Origin: an uncultured Ectothiorhodospiraceae bacterium
GTDB lineage: Bacteria > Pseudomonadota > Gammaproteobacteria > Nevskiales > Oceanococcaceae
Direction of reading: 5' to 3'
Assembly (NCBI GenBank): GCA_937141935.1
Contig: CAKZQS010000009.1
Coordinates: 2,501-66,500 of the forward strand
DNA: 64,000 nt
Under the pieces are notes generated by a model that did no database searches, was not told the DNA's origin, and was given only the letters and a program-made list of their open reading frames with translations. Shown here piece after piece: positions 45,286-56,678 of the stretch. Every line of letters starts with the position of its first letter. The stretch's first letter is position 1. A program made the position numbers and the translations under genes.

Positions 45286-47919
45286 TTAATCGGATTCGGG
45301 CTCGGCGGGGGGCGTGCTGTCACCGCCATCGACGGCGGGCGTACCTGCACCGGCTTCGGCGTCGGCCTCGGCCTGCGCCGCGGCTTCCGCGGCGGCGGCG
45401 GCGTCGGCCACCAGTTGCGCGTCGATGCGGTCCACGCCCACCAGATAGGTGTCACGCAGATTGATCAGGCGCACGCCCTGGGTGTTGCGCGACAGCGTGG
45501 GGATCTGACCCACCGGCGTACGCACCAGCTGGCCGCTGGCGGCGATCAGCATCAGGTCGTCGCCTTCCTGCACCGGCAGCGCCGCCACGACGCGGCCCGT
45601 GCGCTCGCTGGTCTTCATGGCCAGCACGCCCTGGGTGCCACGGCTCTTGGCCGGGTAATCCTCGATCGGGGTGCGCTTGCCATAGCCGTTTTCGCTGACC
45701 GTCAGCACCGGGTAGCCACGGTCGGCGAACATGCGGATCAGCGCATCGTCCTCGCCTAGGCGGATGCCGCGCACGCCGAGTGCCGTACGGCCCATGGCGC
45801 GCAGCAGCGTCTCGTCGAAGCGCACCACGCGGCCATTGCGCGAGAACAAGAGCAGGTGGCGGCTGCCATCGGTGATATCCACCGACACCAGCTCGTCGTC
45901 CACGCGCAGGTCCAGCGCGATCAGGCCCACGCTGCGCGGGCGCGAGAACTGCTCCAGCGGCACCTTTTTCACGGTGCCGCGGCGCGTGGCCATGACCACG
46001 TAGTGGTTGTCGCTGTATTCCTTGATCGGCAGCACTTGGCTGATGCGCTCGCCTTCGGCCAGCGGCAGCAGGTTGACGATGGGCCGGCCGCGCGAGTCGC
46101 GCCCACCCGAGGGCAGGTGGAAGACGCGCAGCCAGTACACCTTGCCCAGCGAGGAGAAGCACAGCAGCGTGTCGTGGGTGTGCGTGACCCAGAGCTTGTC
46201 GACAAAGTCCTCGTCGCGGGTCTTGGCGGCGCTGCGCCCCACCCCGCCGCGGCGCTGGGCCTGGTAGGTATCCAGCGTGGTCGCCTTGATGTAGCCCTTG
46301 TGCGACATCGTGACGACCATGTCCTGCGGCGGAATCAGGTCCTCGTCTTCGAAATCGTCGATGGCGGCGCAGATCTCGGAGCGGCGCGGGTCGCCAAAGC
46401 TCTCCTTGACCTCCAGCAACTCATCGCGGACGACCTCGAGCAGGCGCTCGTGGCGGCCGAGGATGTCGAGGTATTCGGCGATCTGGTCGAGCAGCTGGTC
46501 GAACTCCTCGCGGATCTTGTCCTGCTCCAGCCCGGTCAGGCGGTGCAGGCGCAGGTCCAGGATGGCCTGGGCCTGGGTTTCCGAGAGCTGGTAGCCGGCC
46601 TCGGTCAGCCGGTCCGGGTCCACGTCCTCGGACTGCTCGCGCGAACGCTCGATCAGCGCCATCACCGAACCCGGCTCCCAGCGCTGGCCGCACAGGGCGG
46701 CGCGGGCCTCGGCCGGCCCGGCGGAGGCCTTGATCGCGGCGATGATCGCGTCGATGTTGGCCAGCGCGACGGTCAGGCCCTCCAGCACATGGGCGCGGTC
46801 GCGCGCCTTGGCCAGCAGGTAGCGGGTCCGCCGGGTCACGACCTCGCGGCGGTGCGCGAGGAAGGCCTCGAGCAGCTCCTTGAGGTTCATCTGCCGCGGC
46901 TGGCCGCGGTCCAGCGCCACCATGTTGATGCCAAAGACCGTTTGCAGCTGGGTTTGCTGGAACAGGTTGTTCAGCACCACCTCGGCATTCTCACCGCGCT
47001 TCAGGTCGACCACGACGCGGTAGCCGTCCTTGTCGGACTCGTCGCGGATCTCGGAGATGCCCTCGATCTTCTTGTCCTTGGCCAGCGTGGCGATGTCCTT
47101 GACCAGCTTCGCCTTGTTGACCTGGTAGGGCAGCTCGGTAACCACGATCGACTCACGGCCGTTGTCGGCCTCCTCGATCTCGGTCAACGCGCGCAGCTTC
47201 ACCCGGCCGCGGCCGGTGCGGTAGGCCTGCACGATGCCGGAGGTGCCGTTGATGATGGCGCCGGTCGGGAAATCCGGCGCCGGCAGCGACTCCATCAGCT
47301 CGTCGATGCTGGCCTGCGGGTGCGCCTGCAGGTACAGCAGCGCATCGACCACCTCGCCGAGGTTGTGCGGCGGAATGTTGGTGGCCATGCCGACGGCGAT
47401 GCCGGCCGAGCCGTTGACCAGCAGGTTGGGCACCCGCGTGGGCAGCACCACCGGCTCGGATTCGGTCTCGTCGTAGTTGGGCGCGTAATCGACCGTGTCC
47501 TTGTCGATGTCGGCCAGCAGCTCGTGCGCCACCTTGCTCATGCGCACTTCGGTGTAACGCATGGCGGCGGGCGAATCGCCATCGACCGAGCCGAAGTTGC
47601 CCTGACCGTCCACCAGCATGTAGCGCAGCGAGAAATCCTGCGCCATGCGCACGATGGTGTCGTAGACCGCCGAGTCGCCGTGCGGGTGGTACTTACCGAT
47701 CACGTCACCGACGATACGGGCGGATTTCTTGTAGGCCTTGTTGTAATCGTTGCCCAGCTCGCGCATCGCGTAGAGCACGCGGCGGTGCACCGGCTTCAGG
47801 CCATCACGCACGTCCGGCAGGGCACGGCCCACGATGACGCTCATGGCGTAGTCGAGGTAAGACCGCCGCATCTCCTCTTCGAGATTGATCGGCAGAACTT
47901 CCTTGGCGAATTCGCTCAT
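45286..47919 (-). CDS. gyrA: DNA gyrase subunit A
   Basis: Breakage-rejoining subunit of gyrase. 877 aa, starting [17 protein letters not shown]. The catalytic tyrosine lies in [14 protein letters not shown]. The quinolone-resistance region [22 protein letters not shown] has the wild-type serine and aspartate (positions equivalent to S83 and D87). The GyrA box in the C-terminal wheel is [10 protein letters not shown], and the tail is acidic and alanine-rich. It is the first gene of the gyrA-serC-serA-pheA-hisC-tyrA-aroA-cmk-rpsA block. Confidence 0.98.
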
Positions 47920-48039
47920 CAGGTGCGTTACCCGTGCCCGCGATAAACGGCGAATTTTAGCACGCGGCCCCGCTCACAGCCGGGTCGCGGGCGGGCCCGC
48001 GGGATGGGCGACGTGGCGCCGCAGCACCCCCGCCGAGGG

Positions 48040-49473
48040 CTAGCTCGCGCGGGCCTGCGCCCCCGCCGGCAGCGGTTGCGGCTCGCCGCCCAGGCGCCGG
48101 CCGATGGCGTAGACCAGCAGCCCCGCCAGGATGCCCGGCATGCCCTCGTAAACGGCGCCGGCCAGCCCGGCCCAGCGCCAGACCAGAGCCACCAGCACGC
48201 CGATGATGCTCATCGCCAGCACCAGCCGCGCACCGGGCCGGCCGCCCAGCGCCAGCACCACAAGCAGCGGCGCGAAAGCGCTGGCCAGCGCCGACCAGGC
48301 CATGATGACCAGCCCGAATACGGATTGCTGATTGGCCAGAGCCCAGAGCAGTGCCACCCCGGCCATCAGCACCGTGCTGACCTTCAGCAGCCGGGTGCTG
48401 TCGACCGGGCGCGGCCACAGGTCGTGGGTCAGCGCGGCCGAGCAGGACAGCAGCAGTGAGTCGGCGGTGGAGATCGTGGCGGCGAAGATGCCGGCCAGCA
48501 CCAGCCCCACGAGCACCGGCGGCAGCAGCTCCATGGCCATCGTCGGCAGCGCCAGCTCGGCGTCGAAGTCGCCGGGATCGGCCAGGTACACGCGGGCCAG
48601 CATGCCCACGGCGGTGGCCATCGCATAGAAGGCCGTGAACCACAGGTAGTACCAGGCCCGCGCCTGGCGCATGCGACTGGGCGAGTCCAGCGTCATGAAG
48701 CGCACCATGATGTGCGGCTGGCCAATGACGGAAAAGCCGGCGAACATCCAGCTCAGCGCGAACAGCAGGCCGCCGGCCAGGCCGGGCAGCGCCAGATCAC
48801 GCGGGAACCAGTCCAGATAACCCTCGACCTGGCCCATCTGCGCCAACGCGGCCTCGGGCCCACCCAGCGAGGCCACGGCGACGACCAGCATCAGCCCCAT
48901 CGCGGCGATCATCACAAAGGACTGCGCGGCGTCGGTCCAGATCGAGGCGCGAATGCCCCCGGCCACGCAGTAGGCGGCGACGATGACCGCGCCCATCACG
49001 GCGCCGGCCCAGGAGGGCCACTCCAGCAGCACCTGCAGCGCCTTGGAGCCGGCCACCAGCTGCGCGGCGGCATAGGCCAGCAGGAAGACCACCGACAGCA
49101 GCGCGCCCAGGCGCTGCCACAGCGGGCTGCCCGGCCCACCCCAGTTGTTCAGCACGCCCACATAGCTCATCTCGCCGGTGCGCCCGGCGGCGGCGCGCAG
49201 GCGCGCGTGGACGAAGGTCGAAGCGATGTAGTCGCCGGCGATCCAGCCCAGCATCAACCAGATCGAGGCCAGACCGGTCGCGTAGGTGTAGCCAATGACC
49301 CCGATGAACATGTAGCCGGAGTTGTTCGTGGCCACGGCCGACAGCCCTACCAGCCAGGGCGCGACGCCGTGGCTGGCCAGGTAGTAGTCGCCCTTCGTGC
49401 CGCGCGACAGGCGCATTGAGCTGATGCCAATCAGCACGAACAGCGCCAGAAAGGCCACGAAACTGACAATCAT
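48040..49473 (-). CDS. SSS-family sodium/solute symporter
   Basis: Twelve-to-thirteen-helix symporter of the PutP type, 477 aa. Typical regions: DYYLASHGVAPWLVGLSAVATNNSGYMFIG, AAYCVAGGIRASIWTDAAQSFVMI, GQPHIMVRFMTLDS and GIFAATISTADSLLLSCSAALTHDL (sodium-site serines). The GQPHIMVRF motif is characteristic of the PutP/OpuE branch, so proline or another compatible solute is a likely substrate. It lies 88 bp downstream of the ectoine operon in the same direction, which fits a role in osmolyte uptake. Confidence 0.88.
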   Translation of the reverse strand: MIVSFVAFLALFVLIGISSMRLSRGTKGDYYLASHGVAPWLVGLSAVATNNSGYMFIGVIGYTYATGLASIWLMLGWIAGDYIASTFVHARLRAAAGRTGEMSYVGVLNNWGGPGSPLWQRLGALLSVVFLLAYAAAQLVAGSKALQVLLEWPSWAGAVMGAVIVAAYCVAGGIRASIWTDAAQSFVMIAAMGLMLVVAVASLGGPEAALAQMGQVEGYLDWFPRDLALPGLAGGLLFALSWMFAGFSVIGQPHIMVRFMTLDSPSRMRQARAWYYLWFTAFYAMATAVGMLARVYLADPGDFDAELALPTMAMELLPPVLVGLVLAGIFAATISTADSLLLSCSAALTHDLWPRPVDSTRLLKVSTVLMAGVALLWALANQQSVFGLVIMAWSALASAFAPLLVVLALGGRPGARLVLAMSIIGVLVALVWRWAGLAGAVYEGMPGILAGLLVYAIGRRLGGEPQPLPAGAQARAS

Positions 49474-49494
49474 TGAAACTCCCCCGAATCAGCA

Positions 49495-49520
49495 CGCCCC
49501 GGGCCCTGGGGCCCGGGGCG
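49495..49520. terminator. Perfect 12-bp GC hairpin after the ectoine operon
   Basis: CGCCCCGGGCCC/GGGCCCGGGGCG with a TG centre lies between the ask stop and the symporter start. There is no T-run, so it may be a processing or stability hairpin or a partial terminator separating the ectoine operon from the symporter gene. Confidence 0.4.
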
Positions 49521-49561
49521 GCAAACGGCCGCGCTAGCCGCGGCGCGTCATGGTGCGCCGC

Positions 49562-50998
49562 CTACGCGGCGCAGATGGCATCGCCGTGGTCGTGGGCCTC
49601 GACCAGGCGCTGGTGCAGCGCGCGCACGGCGTGCTCGTACTGCTCTTCATCGATGACGAACTGCATGTCCACCTGACGCATGGACTGATGCATGGCCAGG
49701 ATGCCCACGCCGGCGCGCGCCAGCGCGTCGACCGACTTGGCGAGCAGGCCGGCGACGTTCAGATCCGAGCCGATGGCCGAGACGATGGCCACCTTGCGCA
49801 CCTGCAGCTGGGCCTCGGGGTAATGCTCGGCCACCGCGGCGCGGATGCGCTGCACCGTCTTCAGGTTGGTCGCCAGGAAGTGCGTCACCGTGTTGGCGTT
49901 GACGTCCTTGCTGACAATCGGCGCCTTGAAGCGGCGGATTTCGTCGATGATGCTGCGGTCGTAGTCGGCGAGCATGCCGGACATGTCCGGGTCCAGGCAT
50001 TCCAGCGCATAGATGTTGCGCCGCCCGGCGATGATCTCGACGCAGGGGTTCTCGCTGACGTAGTCCGGCGTGACCAGGGTGCCGTCGTGCTCGGGCTCGA
50101 AGCAGTTCTTGACCCGCAGCGGGATGTTGCTGGCACGCAGCCCCTTGGCCGCCTGCGGGTGGATGGCTTCCATGCCCAGGTTGGCCAGTTGGTCGGCCAC
50201 GTCGTAGTTGGTGCGGCCAATCGGCACGACCTGATCCACGCCCACCAGGCGCGGGTCGGCGCTGGACAGGTGATATTCCTTGTGGATCACCGCCTCGCGC
50301 GCGCCGGTCAGCACGGCGATACGCGAGAAGGTCATCTCGCTGTAGCCGCGATGGAAGGTGCGCATCAGCCCGGCCTCGCAGTGCGCATAGCCGGTGACGA
50401 TCGGCAGCTCGCGGCGCAGGTCGATGCCGGCGAAGGCATTGCGGATGGCCTCGTCCAGGCTGTGCTGCTTGGCCGAGTTCCAGCCGGTCAGGTCGACGAA
50501 GCGGGCGTCAATGCCCTCCTCGCGCAGCAAGTGGGTCATGTTCCAGGCGCTGTGCGCCTCGCCCAGGCTGGCCAGCATCTCCTTGACGGTGTTCAGGTAG
50601 CTGCCCAGGGCGAAGTGCCCATGCCGGCAAACGCTTTGCAGGTCGGCCAGGCAGCGCTCGGCATCCTTCAGCCGCGTGGTGATGAAGGACATGCTGCGCT
50701 GCAGGAGCACGTCGTCGCTGAACAGGCCCTCGTTGATCTCGCGGATGCGGGCGCTGACGCGGTCCAGACCCACCAGCCAGTCGCTGCGCTCGTCGGCGTT
50801 GGCGAACAGCGCGTAGACGCCGGGCTCGCCGGTTTTCTTGTGGCTCAGCAGCAGGTCGGTCATGCCGCCATAGGCGGACACGACGAAGATGCGGTTGTAG
50901 GGGTTGTCGGCGTAGCCGGGGCCGAGCACGACGTTGTCGCGCACGGCCTCGTAGTTGCTCATCGACGTGCCGCCGATCTTTTCGACGGTATGTTGCAT
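49562..50998 (-). CDS. ask: Ectoine-operon aspartate kinase
   Basis: Specialised aspartokinase (Ask_Ect) that supplies aspartyl-phosphate, and then aspartate semialdehyde, for ectoine synthesis. Start MQHTVEKIGGTSMSNYEAV; VEKIGGTSM is the kinase signature of this branch. Catalytic region ITRLKDAERCLADL and TGWNSAKQHSLDEAI, ATP-site VTGYAHCEAGLMRTFHRGYSE, then ACT-type regulatory domains (VAIVSAIGSDLNVAGLLAKSVDALARAGVGILAM). 478 aa. It follows ectC by 56 bp, the arrangement seen in many marine bacteria. Confidence 0.95.
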   Translation of the reverse strand: MQHTVEKIGGTSMSNYEAVRDNVVLGPGYADNPYNRIFVVSAYGGMTDLLLSHKKTGEPGVYALFANADERSDWLVGLDRVSARIREINEGLFSDDVLLQRSMSFITTRLKDAERCLADLQSVCRHGHFALGSYLNTVKEMLASLGEAHSAWNMTHLLREEGIDARFVDLTGWNSAKQHSLDEAIRNAFAGIDLRRELPIVTGYAHCEAGLMRTFHRGYSEMTFSRIAVLTGAREAVIHKEYHLSSADPRLVGVDQVVPIGRTNYDVADQLANLGMEAIHPQAAKGLRASNIPLRVKNCFEPEHDGTLVTPDYVSENPCVEIIAGRRNIYALECLDPDMSGMLADYDRSIIDEIRRFKAPIVSKDVNANTVTHFLATNLKTVQRIRAAVAEHYPEAQLQVRKVAIVSAIGSDLNVAGLLAKSVDALARAGVGILAMHQSMRQVDMQFVIDEEQYEHAVRALHQRLVEAHDHGDAICAA

Positions 50999-51054
50999 GC
51001 GGGGTGTTCCTCCTTGCGCGGGCCGCCAAAGGGCGGCCCGCATGGGGGGCCGAT

Positions 51055-51453
51055 TCAGTCTTCGACCGTCTCGGCGTCGAGCTCGTAGGCGCCTTGCGCG
51101 TTATGCACTTCCTTGCCGTGCAGCGGCGGGTTGAAGACGCAGGCCATCTTCATTTCCTTGCGCGCCCGCAGGATGTGCTTGTCGTGCTTGTCCAGCGCGT
51201 ACATCGTGCCGGCCTCGATCGGGTAAACCCGGCCGTCGGCCACGGTTTCCACCTCACCCTCACCGGAAACGCAATACACCGACTCGAGGTGGTTTTGGTA
51301 ATGCAGCTCCAGTTCGGCGCCTTCGTAAATCGTCGTGATGTGGAAGGAAAAGCCCATCTGGTCGCCCTTGAGCAGCAGACGGGTGCTTTCCCAGCCCTTG
51401 GACACGATGCGGCGCGGGCCCTGCTCGGCCTCTTTGAGGTTGCGTACGATCAT
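51055..51453 (-). CDS. ectC: L-ectoine synthase
   Basis: Cupin enzyme that cyclises N-gamma-acetyl-diaminobutyrate to ectoine. 132 aa, starting [21 protein letters not shown]. The cupin core is seen in [36 protein letters not shown] and [34 protein letters not shown]. It starts 11 bp after ectB. Confidence 0.97.
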
Positions 51454-51464
51454 CTAGGCTCTCC

Positions 51465-52823
<1,359 letters not shown>

Positions 52824-52830
52824 TCAGGCT

Positions 52831-53349
52831 TCAGGCCGGCGTGGCAAAGGGGCCGATGCGGTACAGCACCTCGCTGTCGTGCGCGCCGGCAAAATGTGCC
52901 TCGCGCTCAAACAGCGTGTGCCGCTCACCATCGGCGCCCCATTGGCGCGCCAGGCCTTCGAACAGCGCCCAGGAGGCGGCGTTGTCCGGGGTGATCGTGG
53001 TTTCCAGGTGGTCAATGTCGCGGTTGCCATCGCGCTGCAGGATGGCGCTGATCAAGCGCTTGGCCAGCCCGCGACCGCGGGCCCGCTCGTCCACCGCCAC
53101 CTGCCAGACGAACAGCGTCGTCGGCCGCGGCGGCACGCGGTAGCCGGACACGAAGCCGACCACGTCGCCGTCCATGACCGCGGCACAGGACGTGGCCGCG
53201 AAGTGGCTGCACTGCAGCAGGTTGCAATAGACCGAGTTCTCATCCAGCGGCTTGCAGCGGGCAATCAGCTGGTGCACGGCGTGGCCTTCCGTCGCGGCGG
53301 GTTCGCGCAGGATCAAGTCGGTGTCGTCTGATGGGTCCGAATCAGGCAT
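52831..53349 (-). CDS. ectA: Diaminobutyrate acetyltransferase
   Basis: GNAT enzyme acetylating 2,4-diaminobutyrate. Motifs: LDENSVYCNLLQCSHFAATSCAA, FVSGYRVPPRPTTLFVWQVAVDERARGRGLAKRLI (acetyl-CoA loop) and ETTITPDNAASWALFEGLA. 172 aa from MPDSDPSDD; the track ORF extends upstream without support. First gene of ectABC-ask. No ectR or ectD gene is present, so regulation and hydroxyectoine formation cannot be placed in this window. Confidence 0.96.
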   Translation of the reverse strand: MPDSDPSDDTDLILREPAATEGHAVHQLIARCKPLDENSVYCNLLQCSHFAATSCAAVMDGDVVGFVSGYRVPPRPTTLFVWQVAVDERARGRGLAKRLISAILQRDGNRDIDHLETTITPDNAASWALFEGLARQWGADGERHTLFEREAHFAGAHDSEVLYRIGPFATPA

Positions 53350-53613
53350 GGGTTTTGCGTAGCTGTGGGCCAGTATGGTTGCCACTGCCGCCACGGGGGC
53401 GGCCGCGCAAACGGGCGATGATCGCCGCGCCATGCACAGGCCCGGCGGGGGAGCCGGGCGGCCTCGCGCTTCGATGCGACCACTCGCGCGAATCGACCAA
53501 CCCGGAGGTTGTGTCGCAGCGGCGGAGTGTGTGGTCAGCGAAGTCTTGAGTCTGGGTCTTGGAAATTCAAAACACGAGCATTATCAGCGATTTCCGGACT
53601 CAAGTCCACTCTG

Positions 53614-53636
53614 ACCCCGTAGTGCTACGGGGTTTT
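53614..53636 (+). terminator. Intrinsic terminator in the ectA upstream region (possible sRNA end)
   Basis: CCCCGTAG-TG-CTACGGGG followed by TTTT on the plus strand, with a small GGACTCAAGTCC hairpin just before it. There is no plus-strand gene upstream to terminate (ectA reads the other way), so a short non-coding transcript from within 53350-53610 is possible. The 407-bp gap has only arginine-rich short ORFs without ribosome-binding sites. Confidence 0.65.
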
Positions 53637-53686
53637 GCCTCGCAAGTTCCTGCCAGCAAAGCATTGGCAACAATCTTGCTTTGTGC

Positions 53687-53715
53687 TTGGCAATCCACGC
53701 CCGCATGGCTATGCT
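53687..53715 (+). promoter_or_regulatory. Candidate sigma70 promoter of the Asp-box protein gene
   Basis: TTGGCA, then a 17-bp spacer, then TATGCT, placing the transcription start near 53722 and leaving a leader of about 35 nt with a GGAGA ribosome-binding site before ATG 53757. It was found by eye; both hexamers match the consensus at four of six positions. Confidence 0.5.
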
Positions 53716-53756
53716 GCGACGCTGGAGACCTGTCTACATAACACTGGAGAACCGCC

Positions 53757-56678
53757 ATGTTCCGTCCCCAGAGCATGATGCTCGCGGGCGGCCTTGTTGT
53801 TGCCGCGACCGCGTGGCTGGCTGCCCCTGACTCGACCCCCAAAGACTGCAGTGGTGGCGGCCTCGCCTGCCCTGCCCCCCTCGTCCCCGTGGAGGCCGAA
53901 GGAAGCGCCAAGATGGCGCGCTACGACATGCGGGCTCGCGCCCACAGCGCCCCGCCGGCCGGCGGCCTGCGCAAGGCCTATGAGGCCAAGCAGGCCCTGC
54001 AGACTCGCAAGGCCGACGTGCGCGGCGCCAGTGGCGAGTGGGAGCAATATGGCCAAGGCCCGCTGCTGGCCAGCGGCCTGGCCCACAACCTCGACCTGGC
54101 GCCGCTGCCGCGGACCAACCTGTTCCGCTACGCCGGCCGGGTCGACGACTTCGCCTATGACCCGGTCAACCAGCGCCTGTTCGTGGCGGTGGGCACCGGC
54201 GGCATCTGGATGAGCGAAGCCACCAACGGCGATGTCTGGACGCTGGGCAACTACTGGGTCAGCGTGGGCGACAACCTGCCCACGCAGGCCAACGGCGGCG
54301 TGCTTTGGACCGCCGGCGGCGGTGGCACGCTGGTCTCGGCCGGCGGCGACAGCGTGATGTCCACCGGCGCCTATCACGGCCTGGGCGCGCACTGGACCAC
54401 CGATCTCGGTGTGACCTGGACGCGCTCCGAGGGCTTCCCCGACGACGCGCTGGTGTTCAACACCGAAGCCGATCCGGGCAACCCCAACATCCTGTACATC
54501 GCCTCGAGCAAGGGCCTGTACCGCTCCGACGATGCCGGCCGCAGCTTCCGCAACGTGGCGCTGCCGACCACGCCGGAATGCGCGGGCAATATCGACCCGA
54601 CCTCGGCCTGCAACCTGGCCAACGTCGTCTCCGACGTCGTGGTCAAGGCCCCTGGCGGCGTGGGCAACTTCAGCTGCAAGAACACCGGCTGCCCGGTGCT
54701 GGCCGCTGTCGGCTGGCGCGCCGGCGCGCAGTTCTACTCGGACGGCGTGACCCCGCAGTCGCCGGCCAACGGCCTGTATCGATCCGACACCGGCCAGGTG
54801 GGGAGCTTCGAGCGCCTGGAACTGGCTGAGCTGGACAAGACCACCGGCCAGGGCTTTGCCCCGCAGGAGCGCATCGGTCGCGTCGAGATGGGCGTGGCCA
54901 ATGGCCCGCTGCAGGACCACAACTATGTCTACGCGATGGTCGGCGATGCCGTGCTGCTGCAGGGCGGCAACTACACCGCCGATCCGCCGCTGGACATCAT
55001 CCTGGGCGAAAACCCGGTCACCACGCTGGTCAACGGCATCTACGTCAGCTCCGACTTCGGCAGCACCTGGACGCAGATGGCGGACACGCTGGAGCTGGGC
55101 ACTACCCCGGGCCCCTTCGCCGCGCTGATCCCGCCGGGTGTGCAGTCCTGGTACAACCAGTACATCAAGCCCGACCCGACCCGGCAGGTGCCGGGCCTGG
55201 GCATCCCCACCCGCCTGGTCTACGGCCTGGAAGAGGTCTTCCAGAACCCGGTCGAAGTGCCGCTGGATGGCACGCTGCAGGCTTTCAACCCCAACGACTT
55301 CCAGAACATCGGCTATTACTTCTCGGCCGAGGGCGCGCTGAACATCAGCGTGCACCCCGACCAGCACGCCAACATCTGGATTCCGGACGGCCTGGGCGGC
55401 GTCTGCCTGTTTATCGGCCACGATGGCGGTGTGAACCGCCAGTGCACGCTGCCCGGTCAGCCGCTGACCCCGCAAGGCTGGTCCTACGGCGAGAACGACG
55501 GCTTCTACACGCTGCTGCCCTATGGCTTTGACGTGGCCAAGGACGGCACCGTGTGGTGGGGTCTGCAGGACAACGGCTCCGGCTTCACCGGCGCCGACGG
55601 CGTGTCGATCCAGGCCCACGGCGGCGACGGCGTGTACGCGGCCGTGGACCCGGACAACTCGGATCTGTCCTACACCGAGTCGCAGAACGGCGGCCTGCGC
55701 CGCACCACCGACCGCGGCCTGACCTCCACCGGCATCGCGCCGCCCTACGCCCGCGTGAACTTCGTCAACTGGTTCCAGATGGACCCGCTCGACCCGAACC
55801 ACATGATCACGACGGCCAACCAGGTCTTCGAGACGCTGGACGCGCCGAACGTGACCAGCGGCACCTGGAACGAGGTTTACCGCCTGGGCGTGAACCCGCG
55901 CACCGAGGTGCTGTTCACGGCCAAGGTGGCCGATGTGCACGGCTCGGCGATCTACGTCGGCGCCTGCGGCGACTGCGGCGTGACCACGAACGACACGGGC
56001 TTCCAGAACAAGCTGGCGACCAATATCGGCGGCAGCCGGGATCCGGTACCGGGCACCTCGCAGGGCTGGCACACGGCCACCGCGGCCGGCCTGCCGAACC
56101 GCTACATCGGCGCCATCGAGATCGACCCCGAAGACCCCTTCACCGTGTACGTCGGCCTGCATGGCTATGACTCCGGCGGCCTGCGTGGCCCCGGCGCCTT
56201 CGGTGACCAGAACCCGGTCGACCCGCAGGTCGAGGCCGGCAACCTGTTCAAGTCCACCGACGCCGGCGAAACCTTCGTGCCGATCCAGGGCAGCCTGCCG
56301 GTCACGCCGATCGACAACATCCTGGTGCGCGACGGCCAGCTGCTGGTCGCCACGAACCTGGGCGTGTTCATCTCCAGCGACCTGGAAGGCTCCGACTGGG
56401 CCCCGCTGGGCAGCAACCTGCCGAACGTGCCGGTCACCCAGATCAAGATGCAGCCGGGCAACCCGAACACGCTGTTCGCGTCGACCTACGGCCGCCACAT
56501 CTGGACCTACACCTTCCCGGCGGACGCCCAGATGAGCGAAAACCCGGTGGATGCCCGTCGTGATCGCGGCTCCGCGGCCCGCGCGGCCGGCAGCTCGCTG
56601 CGTGGCGGCGCCGCCGGCGGCCTGGCGTTGCTGGTGCTGGCACTGCTTGGCCTGCGGCGTATGCGCCGCGCCCACTAA
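53757..56678 (+). CDS. Large secreted Asp-box (BNR/VPS10-like beta-propeller) protein with C-terminal sorting tail
   Basis: 973 aa. An N-terminal hydrophobic signal (MLAGGLVVAATAWLA) is followed by a predicted beta-propeller rich in Asp-box repeats: TTDLGVTW, SDDAGRSF, SSDFGSTW, STDAGETF, and looser copies. Such repeats occur in sialidases, photosystem assembly factors and VPS10-like exo-glucanases; no sialidase catalytic set was recognised, so enzymatic function is open. The C-terminus SSLRGGAAGGLALLVLALLGLRRMRR has the glycine pair, hydrophobic helix and basic end of a GlyGly-CTERM-type sorting signal. Monocistronic, with promoter- and terminator-like elements on either side. Confidence 0.85.
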   Translation: MFRPQSMMLAGGLVVAATAWLAAPDSTPKDCSGGGLACPAPLVPVEAEGSAKMARYDMRARAHSAPPAGGLRKAYEAKQALQTRKADVRGASGEWEQYGQGPLLASGLAHNLDLAPLPRTNLFRYAGRVDDFAYDPVNQRLFVAVGTGGIWMSEATNGDVWTLGNYWVSVGDNLPTQANGGVLWTAGGGGTLVSAGGDSVMSTGAYHGLGAHWTTDLGVTWTRSEGFPDDALVFNTEADPGNPNILYIASSKGLYRSDDAGRSFRNVALPTTPECAGNIDPTSACNLANVVSDVVVKAPGGVGNFSCKNTGCPVLAAVGWRAGAQFYSDGVTPQSPANGLYRSDTGQVGSFERLELAELDKTTGQGFAPQERIGRVEMGVANGPLQDHNYVYAMVGDAVLLQGGNYTADPPLDIILGENPVTTLVNGIYVSSDFGSTWTQMADTLELGTTPGPFAALIPPGVQSWYNQYIKPDPTRQVPGLGIPTRLVYGLEEVFQNPVEVPLDGTLQAFNPNDFQNIGYYFSAEGALNISVHPDQHANIWIPDGLGGVCLFIGHDGGVNRQCTLPGQPLTPQGWSYGENDGFYTLLPYGFDVAKDGTVWWGLQDNGSGFTGADGVSIQAHGGDGVYAAVDPDNSDLSYTESQNGGLRRTTDRGLTSTGIAPPYARVNFVNWFQMDPLDPNHMITTANQVFETLDAPNVTSGTWNEVYRLGVNPRTEVLFTAKVADVHGSAIYVGACGDCGVTTNDTGFQNKLATNIGGSRDPVPGTSQGWHTATAAGLPNRYIGAIEIDPEDPFTVYVGLHGYDSGGLRGPGAFGDQNPVDPQVEAGNLFKSTDAGETFVPIQGSLPVTPIDNILVRDGQLLVATNLGVFISSDLEGSDWAPLGSNLPNVPVTQIKMQPGNPNTLFASTYGRHIWTYTFPADAQMSENPVDARRDRGSAARAAGSSLRGGAAGGLALLVLALLGLRRMRRAH

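Follow-up and report, generated by a model that had tools for sequence, protein, structure and literature searches.

What is the function of a terminator-like hairpin that no gene precedes? This question is raised by a plus-strand element in the window (the whole stretch of 64,000 nucleotides that was analysed), located in the gap (53350-53756) between ectA, first gene of a minus-strand cassette for the salt protectant ectoine, and a plus-strand gene encoding an Asp-box/Sortilin-Vps10-like protein. The features of the locus are listed in Table 1.

Table 1. Genes and sequence elements around the upstream edge of the ectoine cassette, in window coordinates
Feature	Position	Strand	Details
Rest of the ectoine cassette (ectB, ectC, aspartokinase, SSS symporter)	48040..52793	-	ORFs, Pfam
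ectA	52831-53349	-	Start chosen by comparison with relatives
Weak promoter-like site, TTGGAA-17-TATCAG	53559..53587	+	Score 6.4; shares -10 region with the putative ectA promoter
Putative ectA promoter, TGGACT-17-GATAAT	53580..53608	-	Score 7.8; predicted TSS ~53573
Hypothetical terminated divergent transcript, 43 nt	53594..53636	+	Predicted from promoter-like site and fold
GGACTCAAGTCC dyad	53596-53607	.	As plus-strand RNA, a weak hairpin; overlap with the -35 of the putative ectA promoter
Intrinsic-terminator-like hairpin and TTTT	53613..53636	+	Core 53615-53632, loop 53622-53625, TTTT 53633-53636
Promoter-like site of the Asp-box gene, TTGGCA-17-TATGCT	53687-53715	+	Score 10.0, highest of the region
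Asp-box/Sortilin-Vps10-like gene, 973 aa	53757-56678	+	ORF, Pfam, G001 orthologue

The hairpin and its class in the genome

The initial annotation described a hairpin followed by TTTT and ending at 53636 on the plus strand, and the sequence is as described: the core reads CCCCGTA-GTGC-TACGGGG (arms CCCCGTAG and CTACGGGG), with TTTT directly 3' of it and then GCC. As RNA, the hairpin would comprise 9 pairs (53613-53634), i.e. the perfect 7-bp core extended by an outer A-U and a G.U pair, closed by a GUGC loop, with a predicted folding energy of -14.2 kcal/mol (z = -4.4). A stable GC-rich stem with a short loop, as expected of an intrinsic terminator, is thus present, and so is a U-tract directly 3' of the stem, though a minimal one, its T-tract score being 3.2 as against mostly 4.5-5.5 for gene-end terminators. 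Termination strength at 53636 is uncertain, and with so short a run before GCC termination may be inefficient.

Strict sites were defined as a stem of at least 7 bp, a loop of 3-5 and then TTTT, and shuffled sequences were scored on either strand. None of 4000 dinucleotide shuffles of the gap gave such a site, a figure that is optimistic since the criteria were chosen after the site was known; independent of that choice is the genome-wide enrichment, with 22 strict sites against about 0.1 expected in the intergenic DNA within 464 kb. Given these counts, a chance inverted repeat without function is most improbable, even though the T-run is short, the hairpin at 53615-53632 was not listed by an automated scan of the region, and no conservation was seen in 100 related genomes. 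The end of a repeat or mobile element was also considered and rejected, the element being single-copy in the genome, and a search of viral contigs for it gave no match.

The distribution of the class was established on 1.26 Mb of the same genome, taken as stretches and allowing loops of 3-6, with gene calls from a simple codon-usage script whose single classifications may err. Among the 51 sites found, 42 occupy gene-end positions (27 in convergent gaps and 15 behind a same-strand gene), four lie in divergent gaps (the present site included), two are co-directional on the other strand, two are genic and one is at a contig edge. Runs of exactly four T are common in this class (10 of the 27 convergent sites). 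Because the element is not a product of chance in the shuffles and the strict class occurs mostly at gene ends, we regard it as a very probable intrinsic terminator, its U-tract being minimal.

Genes and promoter-like sites around the gap

The arrangement given in the initial annotation, with the terminator divergent to the ectoine operon and preceded by no plus-strand gene, was borne out: ectA and the Asp-box gene are divergent, and a hidden plus-strand gene was rejected, the ORFs at 53375-53614 and 53331-53549 being non-coding by codon score (-0.52 and -0.50 log units per codon, against +0.25 to +0.29 for ectA) and having no Pfam match.

Promoter-like sites were scored with a weight matrix that approximates E. 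coli sigma-70; in random 280-bp windows its score reaches 5.97 at the 95th percentile and 7.41 at the 99th. Scanning of 52000-55500 gave 2 sigma-70-like sites against 0.5 expected, both inside the gap. The best plus-strand candidate upstream of the terminator is the weak site at 53559-53587, whose -10 lacks the conserved last T. This site and the putative ectA promoter are opposed and overlap at one AT-rich patch, with predicted start sites at ~53594 (plus) and ~53573 (minus), about 18-21 bp apart. Such a spacing, here between two predicted sites, falls within the 7-25 bp between opposed start sites by which bidirectional promoters are defined (PMC10268837), and elsewhere among bacteria such overlapping, opposed promoters are known to produce divergent transcription (PMC12825309, PMC10268837).

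The promoter-like site of the Asp-box gene is placed 3' of the terminator, about 50 bp further on, and in a genome of the same genus (G001) the distance between GGCTAAGCT and the Asp-box start codon is similar. Since this best site lies downstream of the hairpin, which is not between it and the gene, a leader attenuator or riboswitch of the Asp-box gene was rejected.

On the plus strand, the order over 53596-53636 is GGACTCAAGTCC, ACTCTGA, CCCCGTAGTGCTACGGGG and TTTT. The first of these elements had been annotated as a hairpin ahead of the terminator; the dyad is indeed present, but its RNA stem is just 4 bp, with a UCAA loop, and it holds most of the minus-strand -35 of the putative ectA promoter. 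A role as RNA hairpin is therefore not required, and GGACTCAAGTCC need not act as one.

The position of GGACTNNAGTCC, which overlaps the putative -35, and of the longer dyad just upstream of that -35 could also mean that the two dyads serve the ectA promoter as DNA operators and are not RNA elements, all the more as regulators of the EctR type act on the ectA promoters of other bacteria (PMC5924519) and a palindrome some 200 bp ahead of ectA is conserved in Microbulbifer. We consider operators quite improbable here: a T-run is present 3' of the long dyad on just one of the strands, no further exact copy of this dyad occurs in the genome, and a search with one Alcanivorax query, run without a positive control and hence a weak negative, found no EctR homologue.

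The Microbulbifer palindrome, TTGTTTACTGCTCTAAACAA, is identical in three species and is followed by a T-run; it could be an operator or a terminator. A general design of ect operons was rejected as an explanation, a hairpin with TTTT pointing away from ectA being present in 5 of 78 ectA upstream regions, in Microbulbifer and Sphingobium only. The hairpins in those five regions have AT-rich arms and are possibly operators.

Comparison with a genome of the same genus

The comparison covered one same-genus genome, G001, and the element was found in no relative. In G001, gyrA and the orthologue of the Asp-box gene (75% identical) are adjacent and divergent, some 200 bp apart; no terminator hairpin was seen in this gap, and ectA had no match in the genome. 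The gyrA of the window, a minus-strand gene with its start at 47919, is 94% identical to that of G001 over 417 aa, and the symporter-ask-ectC-ectB-ectA cassette occupies the space between gyrA and the Asp-box gene (47919-53756). Because these two genes adjoin in G001, the terminator can be placed on the upstream flank of a cassette either inserted in the window or lost in G001. The gaps of the two genomes have in common the gene-start regions and short motifs, e.g. GGCTA(T/A)GCT before the Asp-box gene, and in base composition the cassette genes differ little from the rest.

This arrangement, with the terminator at the right flank of a cassette that separates direct neighbours of G001 and with no hairpin in the G001 gap, would agree with a relic or cassette-borne terminator, one that belonged to a plus-strand gene no longer present. 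Such an origin is nevertheless unlikely: 53350-53614 holds no coding remnant, insertion in the window and loss in G001 are indistinguishable with a single same-genus genome, and the gap sequences are too diverged for the cassette junction to be placed.

Three other features were noted around these genes. From the end of the symporter gene to gyrA (47919-48040) there is no minus-strand hairpin of the terminator class, and ectoine transcripts might enter gyrA. Upstream of gyrA lies TGCTAAAAT, an extended -10-like motif. In G001 (G001:C3:536679-542658), the Asp-box gene has a tandem paralogue, which is absent at the window locus.

Small RNA or insulating terminator

A terminator-class element without a gene upstream could end a small RNA, and the initial annotation proposed a plus-strand regulatory RNA ending at 53636 and acting on ectA or the Asp-box gene. 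A stable fold is predicted for the 43-nt RNA (-19 kcal/mol, z = -3.6), but the surplus folding energy comes mainly from the terminator hairpin; the sole plus promoter-like site is modest, the ~43 nt that it would yield are short for an sRNA, and they overlap neither the ectA nor the Asp-box mRNA. Elsewhere in the genome, orphan terminators located in divergent gaps do show weak, sub-threshold matches to sRNA families. In the region studied here, neither a family match (Rfam, permissive threshold included) nor a conserved sequence was found, the ectA/Asp-box spacer having no DNA relative among 100 related genomes, where the nearest ectA genes (about 60% identical as protein) are too distant for spacer comparison; a literature search on ectoine sRNAs returned nothing relevant. 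A small regulatory RNA at this place is accordingly unlikely.

At G000:C4 (~166579-166914), a divergent gap contains two tandem terminator-ended structured segments whose Rfam matches, to anti-hemB and toxic sRNA families, are weak and below threshold (E down to 0.003), and at G000:C42 (~273667-273752) a strong orphan terminator in a divergent gap has a sub-threshold anti-hemB match (E = 0.00013); these are candidate sRNAs.

The other function suggested in the initial annotation, insulation of the Asp-box gene, fits best: plus-strand transcription coming from the ectA side would, if not stopped, enter the Asp-box promoter-like site, which is situated 3' of the hairpin. We thus favour, with a probability of about 0.6, an ordinary plus-strand intrinsic terminator that borders the ectoine operon on its upstream side and insulates the Asp-box gene from ectA-side transcription. 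Transcription in this direction would halt at the 53613-53636 hairpin, and RNA polymerase would thereby be kept from the putative Asp-box promoter. Its likeliest source would be the ectA promoter region fired in reverse, giving a short divergent transcript; antisense transcripts arising within ectA/ectB could be a second one.

For the locus, this reading is mostly a matter of correct annotation, with a probable terminator on the border of the ectoine cassette, flanked by two divergent putative promoters. If the ectA promoter is bidirectional, the locus would cleanly exemplify how a terminator limits the divergent transcript of an osmoregulated promoter. That this bidirectional promoter would moreover give, as its reverse product, a discrete structured 43-nt RNA with a dedicated terminator, a level linked to salt stress and a function of its own is very unlikely.

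The element shares with intrinsic (Rho-independent) terminators the GC-rich stem, the 4-nt loop, the T-run on one strand and membership of the class of the genome's gene-end terminators; it differs in that no gene ends ahead of it and in its minimal T-run of four. As in the bidirectional promoters of Warman, Grainger and colleagues (PMC12825309, PMC10268837), opposed promoter-like sites have a common -10 region, whereas the plus site in the ectA gap is weak and predicted, and a terminator would follow within ~45 nt. Ectoine promoters are sometimes atypical (PMC5924519); as for ectA of Halomonas, Pseudomonas stutzeri and Methylomicrobium (PMC3187862, PMC5924519), a sigma-70-like promoter is predicted before the ectABC-type operon, but the ectA of the window has no ectR beside it, and its predicted leader of ~224 nt is long compared with the 25 and 92 bp of Halomonas elongata (PMC3187862, PMC5924519).
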